From: Acinetobacter sp. 10FS3-1
GTDB taxonomy: Bacteria; Pseudomonadota; Gammaproteobacteria; Pseudomonadales; Moraxellaceae
DNA length: 64,000 bases
Assembly: GCF_013343215.1 (NCBI RefSeq)
Contig: NZ_CP039144.1
Coordinates: forward strand, 248,001-312,000
Direction: 5' to 3'
The notes under the pieces were generated by a model, which saw only the letters and a program-made list of their open reading frames with translations, was not told where the DNA came from and did no database searches. The number at the start of each line of letters is the position of its first letter. Position 1 is the first letter of the stretch. Shown here one piece after another: positions 26,515 to 63,040 of this stretch. The position numbers and the translations under genes were made by a program.

Positions 26515-28314
26515 TTAAATCGAGTGCATAGGCGAATCGTCGTGCTGCACTTGGTTTTGGGATTGTTTTTCCTTTTCACGCTGCATTTGAAGTGTGTCAT
26601 TCAGGCTTGGAACCGCCGGAGCTTTTACATCATTCGACATTTCGCGTTGAACTTCTGCTGCTTGACGTTGAGCCAGATACAGGTCTTTGACGTTTTCAAG
26701 TTTGTCGTATTCAAATTCATTCAGATTTGAAGGGCGATAAACATTGGTTTTATGCTCATTGACGAACTCAACTGTCAGATCGCTCATTGCCAGAGATTTT
26801 TTCATAGCATGAGAACGAGCCAATTCTTGAGTTTCAATGTTGACCGCAATCAGGTTGTCAGTTGAAAGTTTTGACAACGGCTGTACTGCGACATACGCCG
26901 GGGTAAACACTGGCTTCGCATAGCTTGTTACCAGGTTCAAGGCATTGTCATCTGCATTAAGAATAAAATCATAAGTTAGCTTGTGGAAATTACCGCCACG
27001 AGGTTTACGATCTGGCTCTTCAATACCATCAATTCCTTTACCGCGAACAAAGTCCACTTTGGTATTGGTAATATCACGGAATGAAGATTGCGGTGCATTG
27101 TCGTTCAGATACTTGGTTGCAAACGTCTCTGTATAACGAGAACCCAGGTTAATTGTTTGACCAGAGAACAGTTCAGCAGTGTAGTTGCCGTTTTTTAGAC
27201 CTGCATATAGGTTCCGCAGTGATTTGTGCTCATGTGGGTTCAACTGCTGAGTTGTGACCGTAGGAATAGATTTAGCACCGATCAGTGATGAAACAATGAT
27301 ACGTGCTACATCCTGTTTAAGCACATTACGGTACGCAGAGCGCATATCCGTATTGCTTTCAAGTTGAGCAAAAGTCGCGTTGTTTCCGTACTTCTCAATG
27401 AACTGTTGGCTTGTGTAGTCCTTACATGCCAATAGATCAGCAATACTATCCTGTGGGTCAGCAGCAACCTTATAGCTGACTGTAGTTTTTTTAGCTTCTT
27501 TCGAGGTTCCTTTGTATTTTTGCATCGTATCAGGCTTATGGTCCTGAACTACGTCCTCATGCTTTGCTGTTTCCAGAGAGGGGAGTAGGGGGAACGAACC
27601 TTGAACCTTGCCAGTTTCCATGTTTCGGATATTCAGACGAGCAAAAGGCATTTTTACGTCTTGAGATTCAGATTTATTATTCAAACCTGATAACAAGGCT
27701 TGCAAGTTTTGAACTGCAACAGCTTGGGCTTGAGCCGGTTCTAGTTTTAAAGAATCAGGAGCCTGTAAACGGTGGGCGTTATCGAGAATGATCGCTGATG
27801 CGTAAAGATGCTTTTCACCATTCTTCATGTATGGCTGCATTTTAACGGTAGTCAAACCATGTACGACCTGAGCACTCAGTTCACCAGACATTTCATTCAC
27901 GCGGTCAGCCGTAAATGCCATGTATTTCCCTAAGTTTTCATCTTCCTTCAAACGGCATTTATCAAATGCCAGAATACGTCCACGGTCAGGAAATTCGGCA
28001 TTCCGAATACCAACAGAATCATTGTTTGAAAGACGTTCCATACTTTGACGAGATCGGCGACCACGAACTAAGTCCATCTGTTCTTCTGGGGTCTTGTTGC
28101 CAAAGTAGGTGCTTTTGAGTTTGTTGTTATTCTCACTAAGTTCTTCCAGAGAGGATAAGCGAATACGAACAGGGGTTTTGGTGCGAACCTCAATACCGTG
28201 CACATAAGTCACATCGTCGCCATCGTGTTTATAAAACTCATTCACGCTGACAATCAGACGTTGTATTTCAGACTTACGATGATCAAGAGGTTTTACAAAA
28301 TCATTCTTAGCCAT
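26515..28314 (-). CDS. 599-residue soluble protein of unknown function
   Basis: Soluble, mixed alpha/beta, no signal peptide and no recognised motif. The N-terminal 70 residues resemble a small beta-rich domain. The C-terminal 60 residues are Gln/Glu-rich and probably disordered. It lies upstream of the helicase gene on the same strand, separated by a terminator, and opposite the origin region. Its promoter should lie in 28315-28400. A role with the helicase is possible from position only. Confidence 0.78.
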   Translation of the reverse strand: MAKNDFVKPLDHRKSEIQRLIVSVNEFYKHDGDDVTYVHGIEVRTKTPVRIRLSSLEELSENNNKLKSTYFGNKTPEEQMDLVRGRRSRQSMERLSNNDSVGIRNAEFPDRGRILAFDKCRLKEDENLGKYMAFTADRVNEMSGELSAQVVHGLTTVKMQPYMKNGEKHLYASAIILDNAHRLQAPDSLKLEPAQAQAVAVQNLQALLSGLNNKSESQDVKMPFARLNIRNMETGKVQGSFPLLPSLETAKHEDVVQDHKPDTMQKYKGTSKEAKKTTVSYKVAADPQDSIADLLACKDYTSQQFIEKYGNNATFAQLESNTDMRSAYRNVLKQDVARIIVSSLIGAKSIPTVTTQQLNPHEHKSLRNLYAGLKNGNYTAELFSGQTINLGSRYTETFATKYLNDNAPQSSFRDITNTKVDFVRGKGIDGIEEPDRKPRGGNFHKLTYDFILNADDNALNLVTSYAKPVFTPAYVAVQPLSKLSTDNLIAVNIETQELARSHAMKKSLAMSDLTVEFVNEHKTNVYRPSNLNEFEYDKLENVKDLYLAQRQAAEVQREMSNDVKAPAVPSLNDTLQMQREKEKQSQNQVQHDDSPMHSI

Positions 28315-28929
28315 AGGTTAAACCTCATTTCAGCATTCAAAACAGTGAGCTGAAATTTTTTATTTTTCAGTGGGTGTTGGTTAAATACTCAACATGCTTA
28401 CGCCGTTTAAAAATACAGGATTTAGCGGAAAAACTCAATTTATGAAAAATTATAGAAAAGCTTTGTTTTAAAGAGAAAGAGCATAGATTTAAAAGAGGGA
28501 AGGGTAGTCAAAATAAGCTCATTCATTTTTTGATTTATAACAGTAAAAACATTTCACAAAGGAAAAGCTGCTGTTGATAGGGTTACAAGCATTGTTGGTC
28601 TAATTGATAGTGAATATGTTTACTGTACCTTCTGAAAAACAAACTGCGGTATTTGAACTTGTCAGTTAGAGAGACTATCTCGTAAATATATAAACTTGGT
28701 TATAATAGAGATATTATTAATTCTTTCATTAATATTGATTAATGTGTTTATATTAATATTTAGATTTGATATTATATAAACCAGATTATTTATTTGTTAG
28801 TTTGATTTGTTTATTTGAATAATAAAAAAAGAGTGACAAATATTTCATCAACTTCTCACTATCATTTATACACCCTATATGATTTATGTATCTTTGTTCG
28901 ATCTGTAATCCACGTATATCAAGCCTTAT
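28315..28929. other. AT-rich non-coding flank of the origin
   Basis: No open frame longer than about 50 codons with coding character. AT content is very high from about 28680 to 28860, which would suit a DNA-unwinding region beside the iterons that start at 28937. Nothing else recognised. Confidence 0.4.
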
Positions 28930-29430
28930 GATGATTTTTTGGAGAGAAGGCTCTGAAAAAATGGAGAAGAGGGTTTTTTATGGTTTTTCATAACACCGTA
29001 GTTTTGGCTTAAATTTGCAAACCCTCTGCTCCATTTTGAGTTTATATCAGCATACTTATCCACAGAATTTCTAAGTTGTTGAAAAAGCGTGAATAGCGCG
29101 AAAATACTTGGGCTAGAAGCCAGATCATACACCTTAATTATCGAGCCTTTTTACATGATCATTCAAATAATTCAAATTTAATTCATGCAATGCTTAAACC
29201 CTTATCAGACAAGGCTTAGAACACTCTTTTGGAGTGAAGGCTTGCTAATTTTGGAGTGAAGGCTTGTAAATTCCTGTGGATAAGCCCTCTACTCCAAAAC
29301 ACTTATAAGTTAATGTTTTACATAGCAAAATGCACTACACTATTTTTCTCAAGCCACTCTTTCAGTCGATATACATATAAATTTAAAAGTATATATAAAT
29401 ATGATTTTAAATTTATTTTTGTGGATAACT
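28930..29430. other. Candidate vegetative replication origin (oriV)
   Basis: Three perfect DnaA boxes are present: TTATCCACA at 29056-29064 and its complement TGTGGATAA at 29275-29283 and 29420-29428. Six copies of an iteron-like motif, consensus TTTTGGAGnnnAGGGCTT with some variation, lie at 28937-28954, 28958-28975, 29019-29037 (minus), 29227-29244, 29249-29266 and 29282-29300 (minus). The copies at 29227 and 29249 are identical and 22 bp apart, i.e. two helical turns. AT-rich DNA flanks both sides. Iterons plus DnaA boxes next to a Rep-like gene is the standard arrangement of theta-replicating plasmids. Confidence 0.75.
29227..29266 (+). repeat. Two identical 18-bp iterons at 22-bp spacing
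   Basis: TTTTGGAGTGAAGGCTTG occurs at 29227-29244 and 29249-29266. An inverted related copy follows at 29282-29300, overlapping the edge of a DnaA box. Confidence 0.8.
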
Positions 29431-29732
29431 CTATGGGCTTTAAATTTGAAAACGTATTATTAATACATGAAAAGAAAACTATTTTAAATAGTAGTTTTAT
29501 TTAAGAGCTTTTATTCTAAACACGCCTATTTTTGTGTATTTATTTAGTAATATATCGGAAATTTAGTATTATTGGTTTTATGAATTATTTAAGTTATTGA
29601 TTTGTATGGTTTTACACTTATTTGTTAGTTACAAAATTATTTTAACAAAATTGTTTTTTTAGTTTAATTTTAGTATTATAAAAACAATTAGGCAGATCAA
29701 CTGTCTTTACAGACAGGAAACAGGAAAAGAAC
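29431..29732. other. AT-rich leader of the 29733 gene
   Basis: About 300 bp of very AT-rich DNA without a gene. It should hold the promoter of the 29733 gene and may be the strand-opening region of the origin. The ribosome site AGGAAACAGGAAAAG lies directly before the ATG. Confidence 0.4.
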
Positions 29733-30377
29733 ATGACACAACTTATGTTGTTTTCTTCCCTTGCAGCATCTAGTAGTAGCTACGGAGCGGGGGGAGAACA
29801 AAGCCCACTTGCTTCACCTTATGAACTGTCAAATGCGTACAGCGTGGACAATGTGCAAGTCAAAAAAGATATTCGTTGTAAGATCAACGGTAGAGATTAC
29901 GTTATTCGGGGTTTTAAATACCTTGAGAGTGTTGTGATCTGGAACTACCTGTATCAACGCATGTTAGACAATGAATCTAACTACAACGAATTTACTTGGG
30001 ATGAAATGTGCCAAGCAACCGGTCTGCAAATGTCTAAAGATACTTATGAAGTAGTTTTAAAAGCTCTTCTTAAAGTATCAATCGTGCATGAAGTTCGACG
30101 TTTACCGTTTCGTTTCTACCGCACGTTTAATGCCTTGAGCACACGCCAATATACAAGCGGTGAAATGAAGTTTGCTATGACATTGGCTAGTAGCTTTTGT
30201 GGTATGGACCCAGATTTCCAACAAACACTTTACCGTGTCCTGGTGGAAAATACCCAAAAGAGCTATTCAAACCCGCAAGACATTGAAAAAATCCGCAATA
30301 TTGCGCGTTCTCAATACGTGGTTGGTGGTCAAAACAGCATGCTCGACATTGATGCTTCGGTAGTCGCTACTGCTTAA
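29733..30377 (+). CDS. Origin-linked winged-helix-like protein
   Basis: 214 residues. After a low-complexity N-terminus (about 1-35), the region from about residue 60 to 130 reads like a winged helix: a helix ending in YNEFTWDEMCQATGL, then a recognition-like helix SKDTYEVVLKALLKV, then a strand pair VHEVRRLPFRFYRTF. It is transcribed away from the iteron cluster and ends at a terminator (30396-30419). It may be a replication initiator or copy-control protein; no family is confidently named. Confidence 0.72.
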   Translation: MTQLMLFSSLAASSSSYGAGGEQSPLASPYELSNAYSVDNVQVKKDIRCKINGRDYVIRGFKYLESVVIWNYLYQRMLDNESNYNEFTWDEMCQATGLQMSKDTYEVVLKALLKVSIVHEVRRLPFRFYRTFNALSTRQYTSGEMKFAMTLASSFCGMDPDFQQTLYRVLVENTQKSYSNPQDIEKIRNIARSQYVVGGQNSMLDIDASVVATA

Positions 30378-30395
30378 TCCAGATTTGAAAATAAG

Positions 30396-30419
30396 AGGTG
30401 GGGATTCCCGCCTTTTTTT
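30396..30419 (+). terminator. Terminator after the 29733 gene
   Basis: AGGTGGG pairs with CCCGCCT (one G-U) and is followed by seven T. Confidence 0.8.
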
Positions 30420-30422
30420 ATT

Positions 30423-30433
30423 CTGTATATACA
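30423..30433. promoter_or_regulatory. Shared palindrome CTGTATATACA
   Basis: A copy of the dispersed palindrome in the 360-bp gap upstream of the 825-residue Rep-like gene. The rest of the gap holds a small GATGT/ACATC hairpin (30547-30560) and nothing else recognised. Confidence 0.5.
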
Positions 30434-30737
30434 AATCACTCAAAACAGCAATATTTTTGTAAAAACCCATATTTTTCGATGGAAAATGGAGTTTTTTATA
30501 TATTTCCTACTCCACTTTTTATTTTTTATTTGCTATAACTATCCGTGATGTAAGAACATCGTAAGAAATTGAGAGAAAGTAACTACATTGCGACTGGTCT
30601 AGCGCATGTGAAATCATCTCTATTTTATGAAATATCGTATGTGTGAATATATCTGGCGATCTTAGTTAAAAAAGACGTTTTGTGGGCTGGACACCTACTT
30701 AATGGTCTACTGAGAGAATCCGGGTCAGGAAATAATT

Positions 30738-33215
30738 ATGTTAAAGCAAGCTGTAGTACGCGGTCTTGCAGAAGCTAAACCTCAAGAAGTCGTTTTAGAT
30801 TTAGAACGAGTGGCTTCTGAGATTGCCAATGCAGAACAAAAGAAAGTCTTATCTTTGGAGAGCGTTCATACTTATGCTTTCCAGACCGTTTATGAGCAAA
30901 ATCCTCTTTTGCTGAATCAGCGTCTCAAATCAAATCAAGAATCCGCTAAACAGTTTGACAAGGCTGCGATCTCTGTACCGAATATTGTTCTCAATAGCTT
31001 TCAGCAATTAAAACAAGATAGCCTACCGTTAGTTGTGGCTATGATTGCGCAAGTCTATCACCAGATTGAAAACTACACTGACAAATTAGCCAAAACTTTA
31101 AAAGATCACGCGCCTACAAGTGATGCGGTTAAGGCGGTCATTGCTACAAATCCAGTAGAAAAAAATTACTTCTTCCTACCATATCAACTTGTTCGCACCC
31201 TATTGAACTTCGGGTCTATTTCTGAGGACTTTGAAGCTGATAAATTTGGTCGCGCTACCAGTGAACTGCGTACTTTCTGCTTCCGTTTATACTTCAACCG
31301 TGAGACGGATAAGGTAAAAGGCGAGCAGATCAATCTTTTGACAACCTTTGTGGGTCAAGAGAAAGACCTTGATGAACATTCTGTAGAAATTAACGCTTTT
31401 GAAAACTGTTTCTACTGGCAGCATGACAAGAAAGAATTTTTAGGTTTTACGATTGGCGCAGAGTTTCGTAAATTGCTGTTGATGCTAATGAGCGAAATGA
31501 AAGATGGCGGTAAACTCAGACAGATCATGCCATACACGCGCATTGACTGGCACTTCTTACATTTCTTGCCACAACGTAACAACCTTCGCCAAATGTACCT
31601 GTTTATCAAGTCGAATATTTATAACAATTCGGTCTTGCGTGAGCACTCAAGTTTTGAATACTCATTAGATGACCTCAAGCGGTTTATGGGCGTAATCCAG
31701 GATTCGCACTATGCCGATAATGATGCTCACTTTGTCCGAGATAAAATCCGTAAAGTTGTTGCCGACCTGAGTAAAACGCCGGGTTGCGAATACAGCGTAG
31801 ATATTTCTACACGTTCTATCAAAACCCCAGGTGGTTTGAAGAAAAAACTAATCAAATTTAACGTGGTGATCAAGCGGTCATTCCTTGATTCACATAAAGC
31901 CATCTTGAAGCACATCAAAGCGACCACCAATGTCAGCAACTTCAAAAATGACTGGCTGATCTTTAGCTGTATTCGTTACTGTACAGTGGAGCAGCTTTGC
32001 GCTCGTATTGATGCAGCCTATAGCAAGTTTATTGGTGCTCAAAAGAAAGTTGGTCTTTCTAAAAAATATGACCACTTGACTGTTGAAACCCAGATCAGCC
32101 GATTCTTGTCTGATGACCTACAAAAATACTGGCAAGAACTGGCAGCATCCATGTTTATTGAAAATCCTTACAGCTCACATTCGCGTCTGGTGAAGAAGGT
32201 TGTTGTAGGTGAATCTGCAACCAAGATTTTCTCAAGCCCGGCAGCTCAGATTGTCCACTCTAAAAAACGTGGTCGTCCACCTAAAGACCCATCTAAAGTT
32301 ACGATGCCTAAGCTCTCTGCAAAAGAGAAAAAACTTTTGGACGAGTACAATGCAAAAATTGAAGCTGAGAAACTAAAAGCGAAAGAAGCTAAGGGTCAGA
32401 CGGATACAGATTTAGTAGAAGAAAATACCCAAGTGGTTCCACCTGAATCATTGGAACCACCAGTTCCAGTATCGAAAAACAATGTAATCGTATTTCCTAA
32501 AGAGCATATTCTTTCGGATGCTGACCGAATGGCAGACGAAGTTGCTCAGGCAACGGCTGAACAGGCTGAAAATCTGGAAACTGATTACCGCATTGATGCG
32601 CCGGCAAACTTCTCTGCACCACCTCCTGTAGTTGAAGATGCTCAGTGGGAAGCGTATAGCGAGAATGAAGTCAGCATGGAAATAAACCGTGATGATTTTG
32701 ATCTGGAAGGTTTAGAGACGTTCATCATCAATAGTGACAATCTGGTTGAGCACTTGCAGCCGGTAAACGGCAATACAGATCACTATGTTTGGGTGAATGA
32801 TTATCTGGAACACATGAATGACGATCATCAGTCTGATGCCAATTCATTGTTCTATGATTTGTTCAATCTAACAGCGATTCTTAACATCATTGAACACGAC
32901 AACAAGCAATTCCAAAGCAGAAATGTAAAATATATTGACTTGTATCGTGAAAAGTTAAATATTGTGTTCCAGACGTTGTTCAAGTTCCACGGAACCTACA
33001 AACAGCGTAATGACCAGGCTTCTGTTTACGCCTTTATGGTAGAGAAAACAGCCGAGATTCTTTTTGAATCTTCTGAGATTTCACCAGAACAGCGTATGTT
33101 TACGAGAGGTCTATTCGTGCAATTAGCCGAAGCGGTCAAAACTGAGAAGAAAGTTTCTATGAAGGAATTTTATTCTCTTAGAGGGCAATGCGTAGCATAC
33201 CCATTTACAGAATAA
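30738..33215 (+). CDS. Large Rep_3-like protein with AT-hook, upstream of the cas module
   Basis: 825 residues; AGGAAATAATT precedes the ATG. Residues about 280-390 resemble a plasmid initiator winged helix: a helix ending in IKSNIYNNSV, the block FEYSLDDLKRFMGV, then a long helix with IRKVVADLSKT and a strand pair with basic residues. An AT-hook core (KKRGRPPK) lies near 509-516 in a Lys-rich linker, followed by an acidic Pro-rich stretch and a helical C-terminal domain. It could be the plasmid initiator binding the iterons 1.3 kb upstream. Only 68 bp separate it from the cas6-like gene, where type IV operons normally have csf1; no zinc-finger cysteines of Csf1 are visible, so identity as a large subunit is not supported. 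Confidence 0.75.
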   Translation: MLKQAVVRGLAEAKPQEVVLDLERVASEIANAEQKKVLSLESVHTYAFQTVYEQNPLLLNQRLKSNQESAKQFDKAAISVPNIVLNSFQQLKQDSLPLVVAMIAQVYHQIENYTDKLAKTLKDHAPTSDAVKAVIATNPVEKNYFFLPYQLVRTLLNFGSISEDFEADKFGRATSELRTFCFRLYFNRETDKVKGEQINLLTTFVGQEKDLDEHSVEINAFENCFYWQHDKKEFLGFTIGAEFRKLLLMLMSEMKDGGKLRQIMPYTRIDWHFLHFLPQRNNLRQMYLFIKSNIYNNSVLREHSSFEYSLDDLKRFMGVIQDSHYADNDAHFVRDKIRKVVADLSKTPGCEYSVDISTRSIKTPGGLKKKLIKFNVVIKRSFLDSHKAILKHIKATTNVSNFKNDWLIFSCIRYCTVEQLCARIDAAYSKFIGAQKKVGLSKKYDHLTVETQISRFLSDDLQKYWQELAASMFIENPYSSHSRLVKKVVVGESATKIFSSPAAQIVHSKKRGRPPKDPSKVTMPKLSAKEKKLLDEYNAKIEAEKLKAKEAKGQTDTDLVEENTQVVPPESLEPPVPVSKNNVIVFPKEHILSDADRMADEVAQATAEQAENLETDYRIDAPANFSAPPPVVEDAQWEAYSENEVSMEINRDDFDLEGLETFIINSDNLVEHLQPVNGNTDHYVWVNDYLEHMNDDHQSDANSLFYDLFNLTAILNIIEHDNKQFQSRNVKYIDLYREKLNIVFQTLFKFHGTYKQRNDQASVYAFMVEKTAEILFESSEISPEQRMFTRGLFVQLAEAVKTEKKVSMKEFYSLRGQCVAYPFTE

Positions 33216-33283
33216 TCGTCAGTGATGTGACGGCAAGCCTGATGTGGAAAAGAATCAGCTTGTTTTAAAAATGGTCTTTTTTG

Positions 33284-33958
33284 ATGAACAATATTCTGCA
33301 AGGATGTGTGTTCTCAGCATTTCTAATCGCGTTCAGAAAACAGCGCGGGAAGGTTTGCTATGCACACGAAAGCTTATTTAAGGTTCTTGTTCAAGATAGC
33401 CTGATTGAATCAGCCGAGCTGAACAAAAAGAACTCTGTCAATAAATGGCTCACCAAGCCTACCGATGAAAAAAATATCTCAGAGCGTAAGGTCCAGTTTG
33501 TCGAACTGGATGATTATATTTTTGCGCGTCTGAGCTGTAAGCCAAACACTCTGCATTACAAAGAATCCTATTTTGAGCTGAAACCTTTGGACCAGGTAGA
33601 AATTGTCGTTAATTTCCCTGCGGTGTATGAACGCCGTCGATCATTCAAAAAAAATGAACTTGGTGAATATGAGGTTTTACCCCGCAAGTACCTTTCCGAT
33701 ATCGAAAAGCTTGAGTATGCCACCCGCATGCTTTCAACTACCGGTATTGAGTTTGATAGGGTCGAATTTACTGAAAACGAAAATCGAACTATTTACTTCC
33801 GCAAGAACAGGCAGACTTTAACGCTTCTCAGCTACGAAGTTCGTGTCACTGCAACCGTTACCGACCCACAGCTTTTATTGACCGCTTACCAGAATGGAAT
33901 TGGTCGTCGTAAAACGTGGGGCTTTGGCATGTTGCGTATCGAGAAATTAAAGTCATAA
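33284..33958 (+). CDS. cas6: Cas6-like CRISPR RNA endonuclease (type IV Csf5-like)
   Basis: 224 residues from the ATG at 33284 (a TTG directly before it is possible). The C-terminus carries a classical Cas6 glycine-rich loop, GIGRRKTWGFGML. A histidine at residue 28 in CYAHESLFKVL matches the place and context of the catalytic His of Cas6e (Y..H..L). RAMP-type beta-alpha folding fits the length of Cas6e and Csf5. Cas6 proteins cut precursor CRISPR RNA at the repeat hairpin and often stay on the 3' end. First of three tightly linked cas genes. Activity is inferred from family; no repeat array is in the window. Confidence 0.75.
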   Translation: MNNILQGCVFSAFLIAFRKQRGKVCYAHESLFKVLVQDSLIESAELNKKNSVNKWLTKPTDEKNISERKVQFVELDDYIFARLSCKPNTLHYKESYFELKPLDQVEIVVNFPAVYERRRSFKKNELGEYEVLPRKYLSDIEKLEYATRMLSTTGIEFDRVEFTENENRTIYFRKNRQTLTLLSYEVRVTATVTDPQLLLTAYQNGIGRRKTWGFGMLRIEKLKS

Positions 33959-33974
33959 GACTTAGGAGGTGAGT

Positions 33975-34667
33975 ATGTTCCAACCATACCGTATTGCACT
34001 CACCATGAGGACACCCATTGTTCCTGGCAAATTTCCTTTGCATCTGGATTCATTGTTCTACTGGTTCCTAAGTGAGTTCATAGATAACGATGACGAAATT
34101 CTGGATATCCTGGATACCGTTTTAGAAAAGCAAGATGATACTTATCTGTGTTCAGCTATGTATTTTCAGGATAAGCCTAAATACATTCGTTGCGGTGTTA
34201 CGTCCAAGTCAGACACCATGATTGATAATCTCATGGATATGCAAGCCTGGACCAATGACAAAGTAATGGGTGAAACCAAAATGGCATCAGTTCATGCCAT
34301 TGCTACCAAAACTGCATTTTTTAATGCCACCTGTGACAAAGAGAAAGCCGAAGCTCTATTAAAGAAAATTCATGGCGTTGGTCGTTTAACCAATACCGGG
34401 TTTGGAGAAATCGCTTCGATCTCTTTTGTTCAGCTTAAACGTGACCAGAGTGTAATTTCTGATGGTCGTTTAATGCGTGTCGTCAAAGATATCGGATTAA
34501 CACCAGATCAGATCAAACGAGTGGATGGTTATAAAGATTATGGTCGTTATTCACCGCCATACCATACCCAATCCAAGTCGTCTGTGATTATCCCGAAACG
34601 ATTGATCTATACACTCCCATTCAACAACGTGAAGAAGAAAGGCAATAAAAAAGGATTTGGCAAATGA
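33975..34667 (+). CDS. csf3: Cas5-like protein, type IV Csf3 family
   Basis: 230 residues from the ATG at 33975, which has a perfect AGGAGG five bases upstream; a GTG at 33969 is less likely. N-terminal RAMP strand YRIALTMRTPIV, then a PLHLDSLFYW segment that matches the P..LD.LL pattern of Csf3. A C-terminal glycine-rich loop, GVGRLTNTGFGEI, is typical of Cas5/Cas7 RAMPs. In type IV complexes Csf3 caps the 5' handle of the guide RNA. It overlaps csf2 by four bases (ATGA), so translation is coupled. Confidence 0.75.
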   Translation: MFQPYRIALTMRTPIVPGKFPLHLDSLFYWFLSEFIDNDDEILDILDTVLEKQDDTYLCSAMYFQDKPKYIRCGVTSKSDTMIDNLMDMQAWTNDKVMGETKMASVHAIATKTAFFNATCDKEKAEALLKKIHGVGRLTNTGFGEIASISFVQLKRDQSVISDGRLMRVVKDIGLTPDQIKRVDGYKDYGRYSPPYHTQSKSSVIIPKRLIYTLPFNNVKKKGNKKGFGK

Positions 34668-35719
34668 ACACTATTTTAAGTTTTGAAGGCAATATCACGA
34701 CAGTTACACCGTTCACTGTGCAGCTCCCGAATAAGAACAATGTGTTCCCGCACAGCATGGAAGGTCTGCCGATCATCCAAAGCTCAACAATTCGTGGTTG
34801 GCTGCGTCACTCTGTCCATAATGCAATTGCTGCTATGGCAAATCACCAGGGGCAAAGTTTCGATGTGGCAGAACATCACTTTATGGGCTTAGGTCTGGAT
34901 GTGCACAATCAGCTTTCTAAAGTTTCCCAGATGGAACGTAAGAAAATTAACCGTAATCTCAAAGAACAGAATCCATTTTTTGCAGTATTTGGACGTTGGC
35001 TTTCTGGTGGTCGTCTGGTCGTGAATAACGCCGTAGCGAATAAGAAGGATGCCGTGATTCAGATTGGCAGCTCAAGTAGTACCAATATCCTGAAAAGCGA
35101 CCCGCATGTACTTCAACAGATCGACCCATCTACAATTTCAGAACTGGATTCAATATTACTGGCGAAAGTGGCATCGGCTGATATTAAGAGCGATACCAAA
35201 AATGAGATTAAGGCTCTACAAGCCAAACTCAATAAGCCAGACATTGACCCAAACCTAGAAAAACTCATTCAAAAGTCGATTAAAAGTCTTGAAACGAAAA
35301 TGAGTGAGTTAGAAAAAGCCGAGAGAGGTGTAGGTCCACATCGTAAAGTAAATAACACAGTGGCATTAGCCGAAAATGTAGTGCTTAAACACTCCATGCG
35401 TCTAAATAATCCTTCTGAAAAAGACTTTATATTTTTTGTCTGGTCTATATTCACTGCATCCAAACATCCTATTGGTGGAAAGGTCGGGCAGGGTTATGGT
35501 CAGATCGAATTTGAGTGGGATATATATAGCGAAACCCTATTTGATGTAACTCGTAAACATATTGGTGTGATCGGTTTTAATCAAAAGGAAGGGTTTTATC
35601 TAAAAGCCAATGACGATATTGAAAAACTCCAAAAGCTGCTGAAAAAAGAGAATTTTAATATAGAAACTATTTCCAAAATCATTGCTGAAAAATGTACAAG
35701 TTACGGCAAATTTCGTTAA
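34664..35719 (+). CDS. csf2: Cas7-like backbone protein, type IV Csf2 family
   Basis: 351 residues, the usual length for Csf2 (about 340-350). N-terminal RAMP strand FEGNITTVTPFTV, then the block GLPIIQSSTIRGWLRHSVH, the Csf2/Cas7 signature for substrate-side helix and loop (P.i..S..RG.lR), and a C-terminal GGKVGQGYGQIEFEW glycine-rich strand. A charged helical insert spans about 165-225. Csf2 multimers line the guide RNA in type IV complexes. Last gene of the operon, followed by a strong terminator at 35729-35764. Confidence 0.82.
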   Translation: MNTILSFEGNITTVTPFTVQLPNKNNVFPHSMEGLPIIQSSTIRGWLRHSVHNAIAAMANHQGQSFDVAEHHFMGLGLDVHNQLSKVSQMERKKINRNLKEQNPFFAVFGRWLSGGRLVVNNAVANKKDAVIQIGSSSSTNILKSDPHVLQQIDPSTISELDSILLAKVASADIKSDTKNEIKALQAKLNKPDIDPNLEKLIQKSIKSLETKMSELEKAERGVGPHRKVNNTVALAENVVLKHSMRLNNPSEKDFIFFVWSIFTASKHPIGGKVGQGYGQIEFEWDIYSETLFDVTRKHIGVIGFNQKEGFYLKANDDIEKLQKLLKKENFNIETISKIIAEKCTSYGKFR

Positions 35720-35728
35720 ATAAAAAAT

Positions 35729-35764
35729 AGCCCATAACTCGCCTGATTTATGGGCTTTTTTTTA
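35729..35764 (+). terminator. Terminator of the cas operon
   Basis: AGCCCATAA pairs with TTATGGGCT and is followed by nine T. It separates the cas operon from the structured RNA that follows. Confidence 0.85.
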
Positions 35765-35818
35765 AATTTTTATTGTTTTAGAGGTGGAAAATAAACATTT
35801 ATTGTGCATAATAGAAAG

Positions 35819-36018
35819 CAGTTACCGTTATAAATCAAAAAATGATTTGAAACGGCACTAGCCCAATATTCCCTTAGGTGGGTAGGCAATTATTACTTCA
35901 AAGAGTGTTAATCACATCCCAAAAGTGGGTAAGAAGTATTTGAAAATCATCCCTCCAGGGGGTTTTTCAAAAGGTGTTAAGCCGGGAAAAAGGGACAAGT
36001 TAATTGTTCCTTTTTTTT
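35819..36018 (+). ncRNA. Structured non-coding RNA downstream of the cas operon
   Basis: About 200 nt between two terminators with no open frame. A -10-like CATAAT lies at 35807-35812. Predicted stems: CCGTTATAAATCA with TGATTTGAAACGG (35825-35855, two mismatches); TACTTC with GAAGTA (35894-35938) enclosing a CCC/GGG hairpin; TTTGAAAA with TTTTCAAA (35939-35971) enclosing another CCC/GGG hairpin; and a terminator AAGGGACAA/TTGTTCCTT with eight T (35989-36018). Three short hairpins of form A(T/C)CCC-loop-GGGT recur, and TTCAAAnnGTGTTAA occurs twice (35897, 35966). Could be an independent small RNA, a leader controlling the 36112 gene, or a partner RNA of the Cas proteins. Confidence 0.6.
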
Positions 36019-36111
36019 CGCCTGTAATTTACCTATCCCAAAACACCAAAACTGCTTAAAATTACTTGGCTTTATATACACAATCCAAATTAGTTAAATT
36101 GGAATACTAAA

Positions 36112-36867
36112 ATGAAAAAGTTATTTGTAGCTGTTAGCGCAATTTCAACTTTTGCTATAACCACTAACGTATCGGCTGATATGAGTAGTTGGATAGCAAA
36201 GAAACCTTCACAAGCAGCGTCATCAACACAATCAACACAAGCTGCTCAAGCTCCACAAATTGAACAGGCTTCACAGGCTCAAGTTGCAACTGGTTCAACA
36301 TTAGCTCAGGCAGAAGGTCATACTCAGGTTCAAACTTTACCAAGCCAAACACATCCGGCTCCGGTACAACCGCGTCCTCAGATCGCACCGGGGGAATATC
36401 ACCCACAACAACCTCAACATCAAGGTCAGGTGACACCACCACCTAAAACCCAGAATCATAAACCTCAGGTATATAACCCACAGCAGCAACATCAAAATAA
36501 CCAGGTGGCGAATGAAACCGCAAACCAGGAAATTGTTTCTCGTGCAATCCAAAACGCTATGCCTAATGCTGTAAGTCTATTGAATACGCCGTCTTTGAAT
36601 AACACTCAAAAGAATTACGGCTTTTCTTATATCGCTGCCGTATCTCAAATGATCTCTGACCCTAAGAACATGAACGTAGCTAGTATTCAGCAAACCTACA
36701 ATACTGCGGTTACTTGTGCTGCTCGTACAGGAGCCGGTAATGTGATTGCTCAAATGCAGGGTATTCTTTTACGCGATCAGGCTTTAGCTGAAAACTTCAA
36801 GATCGCTCAAGGGCGTGGGAACTTTATAGCTGTAGGTCAGCAAGCACCAGGCGTTACTTGCTCATAA
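36112..36867 (+). CDS. Secreted Gln/Pro-rich protein of unknown function
   Basis: 251 residues. A clear signal peptide (1-22, ending NVSA before DMSSW), then a Gln/Ala/Pro-rich low-complexity stretch (about 28-135), then a small folded domain with two cysteines (TCAART and GVTCS) that could form a disulphide. Periplasmic or secreted. It follows the structured RNA by about 90 bp. A weak TATATACA copy lies at 36072-36081. Function unknown. Confidence 0.75.
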   Translation: MKKLFVAVSAISTFAITTNVSADMSSWIAKKPSQAASSTQSTQAAQAPQIEQASQAQVATGSTLAQAEGHTQVQTLPSQTHPAPVQPRPQIAPGEYHPQQPQHQGQVTPPPKTQNHKPQVYNPQQQHQNNQVANETANQEIVSRAIQNAMPNAVSLLNTPSLNNTQKNYGFSYIAAVSQMISDPKNMNVASIQQTYNTAVTCAARTGAGNVIAQMQGILLRDQALAENFKIAQGRGNFIAVGQQAPGVTCS

Positions 36868-36880
36868 GAAATTTCAGGCA

Positions 36881-36910
36881 AAAAAAAAGAAGTCATAGAC
36901 TTCTTTTTTT
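36881..36910 (+). terminator. Terminator after the 36112 gene
   Basis: AAAGAAGTC and GACTTCTTT stem, loop ATA, followed by T-run. Confidence 0.85.
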
Positions 36911-37019
36911 ATGGGTATTGCTCTGCAACTAAATGGATTTGCTAAGACACTTAGAAGCTGATGTAGATATTATGCCTGAATAATCAGATTCTATCAATTG
37001 AATACTGTGTGATCTTTTT

Positions 37020-37031
37020 CTGTATATACAG
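37020..37031. promoter_or_regulatory. Perfect palindrome CTGTATATACAG
   Basis: The full 12-bp perfect form of the dispersed palindrome, 123 bp upstream of the 37154 gene, in a gap that otherwise shows nothing recognisable. Confidence 0.55.
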
Positions 37032-37153
37032 AAAACCAAACTAATGAGAAGCAAAATAGTCAATAAATTGATCAATATATGACGAGCTTTATTTGAATAC
37101 TGTTATAATTGAAAAAATAAACCACTTGTCCAGGGTTTTTAAAAAACTAATTT

Positions 37154-38194
37154 ATGAATGCGAATATCCAAAACCTAATCAGGTCTTTTAGCCCTGAAAA
37201 ACGTAAAGAAATCCAAGATTACGTTGTCCAAAATATGAGTGCTGAAATTCGTGAAGCTACATTGCATGGTAGTGTTTCACCGCAGATGCAAAATGAATTA
37301 GAAAGCATCATTTTTAAGTACCTCGAACTTCATTATCCAGAAGATATTAAGCACACCATTACTCAAGCCCGAAATGAAGTAGAAGAACAGATCGGTAATC
37401 TGGTGAATAAGCAGCTCGACTTTATGGCTATTCAGCCTGTAGAGGAAACTCCACAGGAAAATAACGCCGTAGAAGAAGTCGCTCCCGTACTAGAAGAAGC
37501 GAAATCAAGCTTCCTATTCAATATGGGTGCTAAATATGCACAAGTCATTCCACCGGAACAACCGCAAACGATTGAAGTTGCTAAAACTGCTCAAGAACCT
37601 GTAACACCATCAGCAGCGCAAGTGAATATTGAACCGGCTCCGCTTGCTCAACTTCAAACGCCTGTTCCGGCTCCAACTCCTGTAGCTGCCAAACAAGCAG
37701 AAGATGATCTTGTGTATTCCGATGATGAAAACCTATTAGGTGAAAATACCGGGTATCACCAACGCCATGACCATGAAGATCGTTTCTTCGGTATGCAGCT
37801 TAAAATCTACAAGTTGTTAGCCCTAACAGATGATGAGTCAGCAGAGAGTTACTTCCGAATCGGTATGGTGATTGCTGCGATTATGATTTTTTTGGGAGCG
37901 TGGAACCTATTTAATGACTTCACCACTATCTCAAGTATGCAAAACTACTTCTATGTGAAGAATCCTGTGTATATGCGTCAGCTTGCCGAGTTCTGTCAAA
38001 CCAGTATGAGCAATATTAAACAGTTCCAGGATTGTGTTGCTAATCGTCAAGCAGACCTGATCTTAGGTCGTCGTCTGGATGCAGTAAAAGATTTCTTTGT
38101 GATTGCAACCGGTGGTGTTCTGTTCTTTATCGCGTATTTCCTGAAACTGAACTATCGTGGTCGTGAAGCATACTTGAACCGTGAGGACTACTAA
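37154..38194 (+). CDS. Two-span inner-membrane protein with long cytoplasmic N-terminus
   Basis: 346 residues. Helical N-terminal region (1-95), Pro/Ala/Gln-rich linker (about 98-185), and two membrane segments (about 234-252 and 313-331). No recognised domain. It is followed four bases later by another two-span membrane protein, so the two probably form a complex. Confidence 0.75.
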   Translation: MNANIQNLIRSFSPEKRKEIQDYVVQNMSAEIREATLHGSVSPQMQNELESIIFKYLELHYPEDIKHTITQARNEVEEQIGNLVNKQLDFMAIQPVEETPQENNAVEEVAPVLEEAKSSFLFNMGAKYAQVIPPEQPQTIEVAKTAQEPVTPSAAQVNIEPAPLAQLQTPVPAPTPVAAKQAEDDLVYSDDENLLGENTGYHQRHDHEDRFFGMQLKIYKLLALTDDESAESYFRIGMVIAAIMIFLGAWNLFNDFTTISSMQNYFYVKNPVYMRQLAEFCQTSMSNIKQFQDCVANRQADLILGRRLDAVKDFFVIATGGVLFFIAYFLKLNYRGREAYLNREDY

Positions 38195-38198
38195 GGTT

Positions 38199-38909
38199 AT
38201 GGCTGATCAAAAATTTAATAGTTCTCAAGCTAATGCTCTTGTCGATGAATTAAAAAGACGCTACACAACGGTTAATGATTTTTTGAAAGGGGATATCCAG
38301 AACCTTGAGAATGTCAAAGAGCTGCATGAACGCCGTCATAATATTCAGATTGAGAAACTACAGCTCTTAGTAGAGAGCCGTACTAAACGAAATCTAGTGA
38401 AACGAATCTTATGTTCGCTTTTGATCTGCCTGGTGACAGCAGCTCTAATTGTTTATGCAGGGATATTCGACTTTGGCAAATTATTCCCACCAATGACGGA
38501 CCTGGCTTCTGCTATCCATGCAAGTAAACATAACAATATGGTCTTTGACTGGATTCTACCGATCACAATTACAACCATGATTCTTTTTGTAGTCAATATC
38601 ATTGTGCTAGGTTTGATTGTTCACCCAATTGCAAAAATTGTTGATGCCGGTCTTGCGAATGTTCACCAGGAAGCACAATCAGCAGAAGCAACCAGACAAA
38701 TAATCCATGAGTTAAACGCCAATATTGTTCAACTTGATACACAGCATAATGGTTTGAATAAAATTTTGGATAGAATGATATTATCTGCAAAAAAAAATGA
38801 TGATCAAAACGCCGTAGATTCAATACTAAAATTAAAAGATGATCTTCTGTCTCATGCCACTACATATCATCGGTATTACAGTATTGTCTTAATGCGAATA
38901 AGCATGTAA
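38199..38909 (+). CDS. Two-span membrane protein, partner of the 37154 product
   Basis: 236 residues from the ATG at 38199, four bases after the upstream stop; a GTG at 38181 is an in-frame alternative. N-terminal charged helix (coiled-coil-like, about 15-65), two membrane segments (about 70-90 and 116-140) and a long C-terminal coiled coil. No family recognised. Confidence 0.75.
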   Translation: MADQKFNSSQANALVDELKRRYTTVNDFLKGDIQNLENVKELHERRHNIQIEKLQLLVESRTKRNLVKRILCSLLICLVTAALIVYAGIFDFGKLFPPMTDLASAIHASKHNNMVFDWILPITITTMILFVVNIIVLGLIVHPIAKIVDAGLANVHQEAQSAEATRQIIHELNANIVQLDTQHNGLNKILDRMILSAKKNDDQNAVDSILKLKDDLLSHATTYHRYYSIVLMRISM

Positions 38910-38973
38910 GAATTAAGAATTTTTAATTAAAAAAACTCAACTAAAGGACTGATTCATTCAGTCTTTTATAATA

Positions 38974-39002
38974 TTGACTAATGCCATGTTTTGATGATAC
39001 AA
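38974..39002 (+). promoter_or_regulatory. Promoter of the TTGACT-TATGCCATG family
   Basis: TTGACT, a 17-bp spacer beginning AATGCCATGTTTT, then ATACAA; 41 bp upstream of the 39043 start. The spacer matches the other members at 43892, 56054 and 63811. Confidence 0.6.
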
Positions 39003-39042
39003 ATGAATTATATTGTATTACGAGTTTGTGAGTAAAAATATT

Positions 39043-39381
39043 ATGTATGCAAACCTTTATGCCGGTGAAGTTACGATTTCAGAAAAGCCGGAGTTTATTG
39101 CTCGTAGTGAAGAAACAGATATCAAAACTCTGATTAAAGTAGCGAAAGGCGATAACGATAAAAGCTTATATGCACCTTTTGAAAACAGTGTCCATACTCG
39201 TGTCGCGCCAGGTGGAGAGTGGTTCGTGACCGTAAATGGTACATTTGAAAACGAATTGGCTGAAAACGGCTTGGGTTTTGCTTGGAATCAGGTATATACC
39301 ATTAAAGCTAACTCTGCTGATGAAGCTGAAAAAATCGTTTTTGATGATTTGAAAAAGGCTGCCATTAATATCATCTACTAA
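39043..39381 (+). CDS. Small soluble protein of unknown function
   Basis: 112 residues from the ATG at 39043; an upstream TTG at 39013 lacks a ribosome site. Alpha/beta, acidic, no signal peptide, no cysteines. It has its own promoter of the dispersed TATGCCATG family and a strong terminator, so it is a single-gene unit. Confidence 0.72.
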   Translation: MYANLYAGEVTISEKPEFIARSEETDIKTLIKVAKGDNDKSLYAPFENSVHTRVAPGGEWFVTVNGTFENELAENGLGFAWNQVYTIKANSADEAEKIVFDDLKKAAINIIY

Positions 39382-39395
39382 GCTCACCAGAGCAG

Positions 39396-39425
39396 AAAAA
39401 AACCCGCATTAATGCGGGTTTTTTT
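39396..39425. terminator. Bidirectional terminator
   Basis: AACCCGCATT and AATGCGGGTT form a perfect stem with A- and T-runs on the two sides, between the convergent 39043 and 39521 genes. Confidence 0.85.
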
Positions 39426-39520
39426 CTTGGTCAGGATTATGCGTGTGTAGATTAAACGTATTGCCATAGTGTGCTATTTTATTCCATTTGTTTATCCAGG
39501 ATAAGATCAGCCTTCTGATC

Positions 39521-40321
39521 TTATTCATTGCGTTGTCCACAACGAAACTGAACGTCAGTTTTAGGCTGTAGTATTTCTTTAGATTGGGAATATTGACCGC
39601 GTAAATGGTTCAACCTTTTAGCATCAGCCTTTGCATGTACATCACGGTTAATATCGCGGATTTTCTGGCGTTCACGTTCCTGGCGAGCTTCTTCCTGATC
39701 GGTTATCCGCTTCTTAATGTTGTTCACATGATAAAAATCTGTTGATAGTGAAGGTGACAGCCGGTGCGACGATAGTAGCTGACTAAATTCTTCAACCTGT
39801 TCTGGGGTATAACGTGGAGTAGAGAATGATTTTATAAAATCAACTATTTCTCTACCGACACAAATATTTGGGAAGTATTCACCGTTAGCGAAGCTAATAT
39901 CAGCCCGGTTAGTAAAGAATACGACATTAACTGGTTCCGAGTGCGGTAAACGTAAAACCGAAGCTACAGCTCTACAGTGAGCTATGTTCTGATGGAAAGG
40001 AGAGTTAATTTTAAAGACTTTGGCGTTTTTATGCGGTGAGTACCGTACAAACCATTTATCGTGATTCTGGGTGGCAGTAATAAAACCTTTATAGTTTTTC
40101 ACCTCGATCACAAAGACCCCATATTCATTGATTAAAATATTGTCGATCTGGGAAGTATAGGAGCCGTAGGGCAGGGTGACGTTATTTAAACGCTTAGAAT
40201 GAGAAAAAAAGAGTTTTAAATAACCGGAAACAAGCTTTTCAGCATAAATACCTTTCAAACCATTAACACAGTATTTTTTGGCTAGAAATTTTAGCCAAGC
40301 AATCATTTTCTGAATATTCAC
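39521..40321 (-). CDS. NERD-domain protein (nuclease-related)
   Basis: 266 residues. A NERD domain lies at about 22-130: GIYAEKLV (E28), then SQIDNILINEYGVFVIEVKNYKG with D60, E73 and K75 in the restriction-endonuclease-like D...ExK arrangement. NERD proteins are predicted DNA-processing nucleases common on plasmids. The C-terminal third is helical and basic. It is transcribed alone, convergent with the 39043 gene and divergent from the 40449 gene. Confidence 0.85.
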   Translation of the reverse strand: MNIQKMIAWLKFLAKKYCVNGLKGIYAEKLVSGYLKLFFSHSKRLNNVTLPYGSYTSQIDNILINEYGVFVIEVKNYKGFITATQNHDKWFVRYSPHKNAKVFKINSPFHQNIAHCRAVASVLRLPHSEPVNVVFFTNRADISFANGEYFPNICVGREIVDFIKSFSTPRYTPEQVEEFSQLLSSHRLSPSLSTDFYHVNNIKKRITDQEEARQERERQKIRDINRDVHAKADAKRLNHLRGQYSQSKEILQPKTDVQFRCGQRNE

Positions 40322-61880: not shown

Positions 61881-62617
61881 GACGCGACCGGCTGACCCAA
61901 AGAGTATTAGAGCAGTACCGCAATGAAGATTTGAATGAGCATTACGAAAAGAGCCGTAAATACTTTATCAATATCTTCATATTGGCGTTATTCATTGGGT
62001 TTATCGCCTTATTTATTGTAGTTCAAAACCATTACAGCATCTATCTCAACTATGCCAAGTATGACTTGGCACGTTATGAAAATATGGTGGATGAATCTGT
62101 TACCGGTGAATACGAATCTGTAAAAGGGGAAGCTGCTCTATCGAAATGGGAGCAATATAAGAAAATAGTTCGCACCAGTGCTTTACCAATAACTGACCAG
62201 AACTACATTCTTGCTCAAAAAGCCTTGCTCTTGGATTTGCCAGAAAACGAAGAGCTGAACAAGCTGTCATCTTATTTTGAGTATGAAGTTAAAACGGATG
62301 ATCTGGACTATGTAAACGTAGATCATAACGTCTTGAACCGTTTTGTTTTTCACTACTCACCATATAACGGCACAGATAAAAAAATGTTCGTGAAACTTCA
62401 AGCGGAGCTTTTCGACAAAATGGCAACTAAGATTGTGCGTGAGAACTATGTAAATCTGTTTTTATACAACACATCGGTTCTGCTAGATCAGTACAATAGG
62501 CCAGTTCACCGGTTTCTACCGTTTGGGGTGATTTACCTCATTATGTTTGGCTTTTGTTTTGCAGTGTTCTATGGCGTATGCAACAACTTGGCTGCCAGGT
62601 ACGAAGCCTATCATTAG
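61877..62617 (+). CDS. TelA-operon membrane protein
   Basis: 246 residues. Two membrane segments (about 31-52 and 214-236) flank a soluble, probably periplasmic domain. Translationally coupled to telA by a four-base overlap, so it is a likely membrane anchor of the TelA complex. No family recognised. Confidence 0.78.
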   Translation: MRRDRLTQRVLEQYRNEDLNEHYEKSRKYFINIFILALFIGFIALFIVVQNHYSIYLNYAKYDLARYENMVDESVTGEYESVKGEAALSKWEQYKKIVRTSALPITDQNYILAQKALLLDLPENEELNKLSSYFEYEVKTDDLDYVNVDHNVLNRFVFHYSPYNGTDKKMFVKLQAELFDKMATKIVRENYVNLFLYNTSVLLDQYNRPVHRFLPFGVIYLIMFGFCFAVFYGVCNNLAARYEAYH

Positions 62618-62982: not shown

Positions 62983-63040
62983 AAGTATTCCCTAGAGCCG
63001 TCTGTTCTAAGGTCTGTTTTCAGTCTACTTTTCTTTAGGC
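62983..63040. other. Short gap before the small-RNA candidate
   Basis: No gene. It contains the upstream region of the frameshifted gene and the downstream end of the small-RNA terminator. Confidence 0.4.

Follow-up and report, generated by a model that had tools for sequence, protein, structure and literature searches.

Can a type IV CRISPR operon made up of cas6, csf3 and csf2 be a system in its own right, or is it what is left of a larger one? The question is raised by positions 33284-35719 of a 64,000-nucleotide stretch of Acinetobacter sp. 10FS3-1 (hereafter the window), which covers positions 248001-312000 of the plasmid contig NZ_CP039144.1 (C2; 395,494 bases, in a 3.65-Mb genome). The reading tentatively favoured here, at a little short of an even chance, is that of a conserved, derived type IV-A3-like operon cut down to its RNA-handling core. 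Its ribonucleoprotein (RNP) would have moved away from double-stranded DNA recognised through a protospacer-adjacent motif (PAM) and towards single-stranded RNA or DNA. The operon consists of three genes:

33284..33958, plus strand: cas6-like RNase gene, 224 aa, with a catalytic-type His28 (codon at 33365-33367) and a C-terminal glycine-rich loop (from profiles and a fold model)
33975..34667, plus strand: csf3 (type IV Cas5), with a shortened and less basic PAM-loop segment (from profiles, an alignment and a fold model)
34664..35719, plus strand: csf2 (type IV Cas7), with the thumb-helix region present (from profiles and alignments)

Family identity of the three proteins

The cas6 open reading frame (ORF) begins with ATG, is intact and lies on the same strand as csf3 and csf2. 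For csf3 the ATG at 33975, which stands behind a AGGAGGTGA Shine-Dalgarno sequence, is the preferred start, and a GTG at 33969 is possible; from the ATG to the stop at 34667 the protein has 230 aa. The csf2 ORF (351 aa) overlaps csf3 by 4 nt and is the only csf2 match in the genome.

The best PADLOC models for the three proteins are Cas6_0_IVA3 (9.5e-12), Csf3_0_IV (7.5e-28) and Csf2_0_IV (3.8e-25), and the type III models score weaker than these. In a PDB sequence search, Csf2 and Csf3 matched their namesakes in the K. pneumoniae IV-A3 complex (1.1e-23 and 7.7e-4, respectively) and Cas6 had no significant match (best 0.068). Structure models of Cas6 and Csf3, of modest confidence (mean predicted local distance difference test scores 70.3 and 65.4) and used for fold identity only, gave fold matches to Cas6e (5cd4_A, E 5.1e-8) and to 8rc2_F (E 2.1e-9). 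The operon therefore has the csf2-type Cas7 of type IV systems (PADLOC, PDB), together with the Csf3-type Cas5 and the Cas6 of the IV-A3/Cas6e kind found in type IV-A3 (PADLOC, fold match). The first-pass annotation of this DNA had read the linked genes as Cas6-, Csf3- and Csf2-like. PADLOC, PDB and fold matches agree with it: all three proteins in the type IV profile searches, and Cas6 and Csf3 in the predicted-structure searches, stay within the Cas5/6/7 families.

In Pfam, Cas6 lies above its cut-off (41.3 against 25 bits), Csf2 falls under the RAMP cut-off (18.3 against 22.1) and nothing over a cut-off was found for Csf3. All NCBIfam matches of the operon proteins are also under their cut-offs (37.2 against 140 bits for csf3). 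Because Csf2 and Csf3 fall short in Pfam and all three do so in NCBIfam, the proteins are diverged family members. His28 and the C-terminal loop GIGRRKTWGFGML can be seen together in the Cas6 sequence, as had been described. His28 is kept in 19 of 19 rows of an alignment that leaves out the Cas6 relatives P0011-P0015 (5 of 17) as well as P0018 and P0023. In Csf2, both the core and the long thumb-helix region are retained in the alignment.

Relatives and phylogeny

Relatives were searched among ~5.8 billion proteins. Csf2 gave 9 matches (54-100% identity, the 100% match being the query itself), while Cas6 and Csf3 gave 17 each (53-97% and 54-97%). Relatives in the 53-97% range are almost complete in length and have many invariant residues in common. 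Among the sizes of the longest contigs, six recur in every list (6382, 30409, 41786, 43304, 28062 and 21309) and another five occur in two of the three (85974, 66217, 3508, 2820 and 11969). The minimal-type proteins form a clade with support of 100/100 for Csf2 (9 rows: every match, with the window protein standing for its own) and 100/99 for Csf3 (13 rows). The module is thus not one decayed locus, since its relatives share contig sizes and the clades of Csf2 and of Csf3 are each fully supported. The variant status first proposed for the module is strengthened, in that diverged versions of its proteins occur elsewhere and the Csf3 versions have a change in common.

Matches to csf2 are rare: they occur in 3 of 175 genomes at genus level and 3 of 348 at family level, own genome counted. 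The two further genomes are taken to be those with the type IV-A loci of pARA1 and TGL-Y2, with which the coordinates coincide. In an order-wide sample of 390 genomes the own genome alone matched, and no relatives were found in scans of genome contigs and viral contigs or among phage records.

Cas6-like proteins are also found away from this module. Another 61 Acinetobacter plasmids have a Cas6-like match (~27% among the matches listed). In two of these plasmids (L048 9058-9702 and 9779-10861; L049 5959-6603) the annotation shows the Cas6-like gene with no further cas gene next to it. In pXBB1-9 the gene next to the Cas6-like gene matches AcrVA2 (PDB 7ci1, E 1.4e-7). A 53% Cas6 relative in A. 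baumannii (P0026, 330104-base contig) is possibly another lone Cas6, with no Csf2 or Csf3 match on a contig of that size.

The PAM-loop segment of Csf3

In the IV-A3 complex of K. pneumoniae, Csf3 touches the PAM-side DNA through an arginine-rich thumb loop (R102, R104, R105, R110) plus T114 and K119, and does so together with Cas8 (PMC11519345). In the Csf3 profile of the minimal-type clade, R102, R104 and R105 fall in a gap and R110, T114 and K119 pair with different residues, alignment confidence being low at all of these positions. The segment between two well-aligned anchors was also compared as a whole. It has 50-52 aa and a net charge of -3 to +3 in the minimal-type Csf3 proteins (13 of 13; P0030, P0031 and P0033-P0035, 88-90% identical and 5 of the 17 matches, were left out of this alignment), against 57-64 aa and +2 to +7 in complete systems (8 of 8, hand-picked for diversity from 454 plasmid records). 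The basic PAM-reading thumb loop of type IV-A3 Csf3 was accordingly not found here. Its csf1-type partner (Cas8), which shares the PAM contact in IV-A3, is not in the operon.

Missing components

A search for DinG with PF13307 gave no matches in the own genome, with the control positive in 10 of 14. A DinG profile from which Acinetobacter rows had been left out gave a best E of 0.11 in the own genome, and it recovered DinG genes, three in all, from a pair of related genomes at E 6.1e-87 or better. The dinG helicase of type IV-A was thus not found genome-wide, by a search with a working control. Among ten ORFs scanned at 26515-40321 there was no csf1, helicase or cas1/cas2 (recD had no genome-wide search).

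The case of csf1 is less clear. No such ORF lies in or next to the operon, and a genome-wide profile search gave none. The control failed, however: with Acinetobacter rows left out, the profile did not pick up the genes at the csf1 position in two related genomes, so absence from the whole genome is unproven. These csf1-position genes were assigned by position and a zinc-finger motif, and PADLOC recognises neither of the two tested. Among 235 plasmid ORFs with lengths of 150-450 aa, just 2 have the CxxC-CxxC pattern, which is present in 6 of 6 Csf1 proteins. One of them, of 257 aa, was rejected as csf1, as the Csf1 profile does not match it; the other appears HNH-like by eye. Two further hits at C2:119720-121528, a 182-aa ORF (DinG, E 0.0025) and a 231-aa ORF (Csf1, E 0.045), were put down to chance, their aligned parts containing no Walker or zinc-finger region. 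Pfam gave nothing over cut-off for the whole 182-aa ORF or for the first 93 aa of the 231-aa ORF.

No CRISPR array was detected within the window. On C2 as a whole no type IV array was found: only a type I-F array and non-CRISPR tandem repeats were detected. The repeat of the TGL-Y2-type IV-A loci is absent from the own genome at up to 3 mismatches. The chromosome was scanned de novo over 45 kb, and genome-wide with two repeat patterns. The features of type IV-B (cas11, a cysH-like partner and no cas6) were not found either: cas6 is present, and neither of the other genes is among the scanned neighbours. The minimal gene set initially described therefore stands for dinG (genome-wide) and for csf1 near the operon, but is unproven for csf1 across the genome. 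No type IV array was found on the plasmid of the operon, but an I-F array with effector genes lies ~137-145 kb away.

Proposed mechanism

Under the favoured reading, Cas6 would cut a hairpin-containing small RNA, Csf3 would cap its 5' end and Csf2 would polymerise along it. The RNP would then bind complementary single-stranded nucleic acid, either messenger RNA or single-stranded DNA entering by conjugation, and silence it by occupancy, a mode that would need no helicase, no unwinding of an R-loop and no reading of a PAM. The guide would probably not derive from a classical array, and the structured element after csf2 (described below) is one candidate source. There is a precedent in type IV-B, where an array-less complex reportedly assembled on non-CRISPR RNAs (PMC7937560). 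A more specific proposal adds that Cas6 matures a separately encoded small RNA dedicated to this system, perhaps from the element after csf2, and that this type IV-derived RNP, lacking Cas8, helicase, PAM reading and array, binds single-stranded RNA or transferring DNA as a plasmid small-RNA regulator or interference device. In that full form the proposal is rather unlikely.

Several points weigh against the reading of a reduced RNA-handling core. Neither a guide RNA nor a target was identified for the Cas6-Csf3-Csf2 RNP. The Csf3 loop charges of the two groups touch (Alteromonas, complete, +2; P0043, minimal, +3). The thumb helices of Csf2 add to DNA binding in IV-A3 (PMC11519345), and their retention here could mean that DNA binding was kept; loss of all DNA contact is therefore not implied. 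With the lone Cas6 of pXBB1-9 added, His28 is nearly invariant and no longer invariant. In the metagenomic relatives, the lack of csf1 and dinG is deduced from Csf3 alone, and linkage of their genes from equal contig sizes. The trees are midpoint-rooted and the tree tool warned of long branches meeting. Finally, a diverged csf1 may lie elsewhere, and the chromosome, of which the de novo array scan covered 45 kb, may hold an array whose repeat is of an unknown kind.

Type I-F systems and alternative explanations

The genome contains two I-F arrays. The chromosomal one (C1 ~1899034-1907105) has 135 repeats and an apparently intact gene set: cas1, cas2-3 (an open 1127-codon frame, assigned by place and size), cas8f, cas5f, cas7f and cas6f. 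The plasmid one (C2:136009-136874) has 15 repeats and lies with cas6f-cas7f-cas5f-cas8f-cas3 (C2:136009-143969; cas8f assigned from order and size only), with no cas1 seen beside them. It is inside a segment of 119 kb that is absent from the related plasmid pB18-1. The 148 genome-wide matches to the repeat pattern are apparently these two arrays. By eye, both I-F repeats are unlike the repeats beside the TGL-Y2 IV-A loci.

The PAM of type I-F systems is 5'-CC. Nine of the 134 chromosomal spacers match the plasmid at up to 5 mismatches, seven of them with 5'-CC, and reversed spacers, used as a control, gave 0 matches. Both of the perfect matches have 5'-CC, and one of these spacers sits at the AT-rich, leader-like end of the array. 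The matching protospacers are at C2 318-373 kb and at two places in the window:

62073..62104, minus strand: protospacer matched at 32/32 positions by the leader-like-end spacer of the chromosomal I-F array, with 5'-CC
63006..63037, minus strand: protospacer of a second chromosomal I-F spacer, 2 mismatches, with 5'-CC

A plasmid that persists though targeted by I-F must have some escape, and the targeting of this resident plasmid suggests an anti-CRISPR or a silent I-F system. The module itself could be the means of escape: as a counter-defence decoy, Cas6-Csf3-Csf2 would disturb the host I-F system, for example by sequestering CRISPR RNA (crRNA) or Cas subunits, and the plasmid would persist. 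The intact-looking host gene set, the spacer matches and the persistence of the plasmid fit this, and Cas-derived inhibitors are rare according to a review (PMC11656645). However, Cas6 is Cas6e/IV-A3-like with no Cas6f model among its matches and would not be expected to bind I-F repeats, and there is no solitary I-F-like repeat on C2 at up to 8 mismatches. A silent I-F system or recent acquisition of the plasmid may be the route of escape instead. The decoy explanation is distinctly unlikely.

It is also improbable that the operon is a decaying and now functionless remnant of a complete IV-A3 locus. Its gene order is indeed that of complete loci minus csf1 and dinG (csf1-cas6-dinG-csf3-csf2 in L005-L008; L003 has an extra gene before csf3), no array was found, and csf2 is as rare in the family as described above. 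Against decay, all three genes are intact and tightly spaced, their diverged relatives are almost complete in length and share many invariant positions, and the clade diversified following a long stem.

A complete but dispersed type IV-A system, with a diverged csf1 and an array of unknown repeat elsewhere on the plasmid or chromosome, is hardly probable either. The failure of the Csf1 profile on the csf1-position genes of two related genomes means that csf1 can escape detection, and the de novo array scan of the chromosome spanned 45 kb beyond the two repeat patterns searched genome-wide. On the other hand, neither of the two CxxC-CxxC ORFs among 235 on the plasmid is a convincing Csf1, DinG was not found with a good control, and the PAM-loop segment of Csf3 is reduced.

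A trans-acting type IV effector, which would draw its crRNAs from the I-F array of the plasmid or of the chromosome and use a host helicase, is very improbable: the two arrays are at hand, and a type IV-A system reportedly uses host I-E adaptation in trans (PMC11656645), but I-F systems have their own Cas6f, their repeats differ by eye from those beside the TGL-Y2 IV-A loci, pB18-1 has the module and not the 119-kb segment with the plasmid I-F array, the Csf3 PAM-loop segment is reduced, and the IV-B complex of Mycobacterium sp. JS623 took up few I-E crRNAs (~0.12% of reads; PMC7937560).

Plasmid context and flanking elements

The following features flank the operon:

28937..29430, plus strand: putative origin, with 22-bp iteron-like repeats, DnaA-box-like sites and an AT-rich intergenic stretch
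30738..33215, plus strand: gene for an 825-aa protein with no family match over cut-off, ending 68 nt before cas6
35722..35763, plus strand: strong intrinsic terminator after csf2 (z -5.22)
35810..36025, plus strand: strongly folding non-coding element with a terminator-like hairpin and T run at its end, a candidate small RNA

The element at 35810-36025 has a folding z of -4.17, and none of 200 shuffles was equally stable. An identical copy is present in pB18-1, with no other match among plasmid records. In the own genome it matches itself and stretches of at most 28 bases (best E 8e-4), many in an A/T-rich palindrome. It has no Rfam match at gathering score, a relaxed E giving sub-threshold matches only. 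A CRISPR-repeat-like character was rejected: the best of 10 comparisons (p 0.023) is not significant once corrected. In the Aeromonas and Alteromonas loci an array follows csf2 (in Shewanella it is upstream), whereas here the structured element takes that place; it is a candidate source of a guide or structural RNA.

The 825-aa gene lies downstream of the iteron-like repeats and DnaA-box-like sites, which probably represent an origin; the sites were scored with the DnaA-box consensus. The gene had been labelled Rep-like, a label that none of the libraries scanned confirmed. Action of the module on plasmid replication or incompatibility, also suggested at first, finds no support beyond the position of the module.

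C2 is 99.99% identical to the Acinetobacter indicus plasmid pB18-1 over ~275 kb and has ~119 kb extra. The junctions of the extra segment are at C2 98.3 kb and 217.5 kb, within tandem repeats, so the shorter pB18-1 could reflect either a genuine deletion or an assembly that collapsed there.

Comparison with known systems

The module resembles type IV-A3 of K. pneumoniae (e.g. pENVA; PDB 8rc2) in its Csf2, Csf3 and Cas6 families, relative gene order and megaplasmid location. It differs in that no dinG, no csf1 at the locus and no associated array were found, in the reduced PAM-loop segment of Csf3 and in forming a separate deep clade. With the Acinetobacter IV-A loci (pARA1 and the TGL-Y2 plasmid) it shares the genus, location on large plasmids and the three gene families, at a Csf2 identity of 27-28%. 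Unlike the module, these loci keep dinG, a CxxC-CxxC csf1-position gene and a basic Csf3 segment.

Similarly to the type IV-B Csf complex of Mycobacterium sp. JS623, which assembles on non-CRISPR RNAs (PMC7937560), the module is plasmid-borne, and no array of its own was found. In type IV-B, however, csf1 and cas11 come with a CysH-like partner and Cas6 is missing, while the module keeps Cas6 and none of the other genes was seen at its locus. HRAMP/ARAMP are likewise array-less CRISPR-like modules, but they are type III-derived and typically nuclease-linked (PMC12669027), whereas the best profiles here are type IV and no nuclease was seen directly adjacent. Taylor et al. 2021 (PMC8175902) mention, with reference to Pinilla-Redondo, type IV variants without csf1, which the module resembles in having no csf1 at its locus. 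A form with only Cas6, Csf3 and Csf2 is not mentioned in the part available of the 2025 classification. No paper was found on Acinetobacter type IV csf2-csf3-cas6 or on pB18-1; Pinilla-Redondo 2020 and Moya-Beltran 2021, which were outside the comparison, may describe the module.

If functional, the operon would be a natural Cas5-Cas6-Cas7 core with no helicase or PAM-reading loop and would show the minimum of a class 1 effector needed for an RNA-guided machine. As it comprises no more than three small genes and perhaps a single RNA partner, it would also be a tractable case for the role of array-less type IV complexes. A conserved set of one RNA cutter and two RNA-binding subunits, without the helicase and apparently without the large subunit and guide array of its relatives, suggests CRISPR machinery that has been put to a different use.

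Two minor observations concern the plasmids used for comparison. Near its two IV-A loci the TGL-Y2 plasmid carries short arrays of ~60-nt periodicity (L004 4394-4540, 15496-15645 and 21610-21700; L047 10169-10670), which are absent from its listed features. CysH-like genes partner type IV-B, and pB18-1 has two annotated phosphoadenosine phosphosulfate reductase genes (208768-209778 and 228869-229642), both far from the operon.

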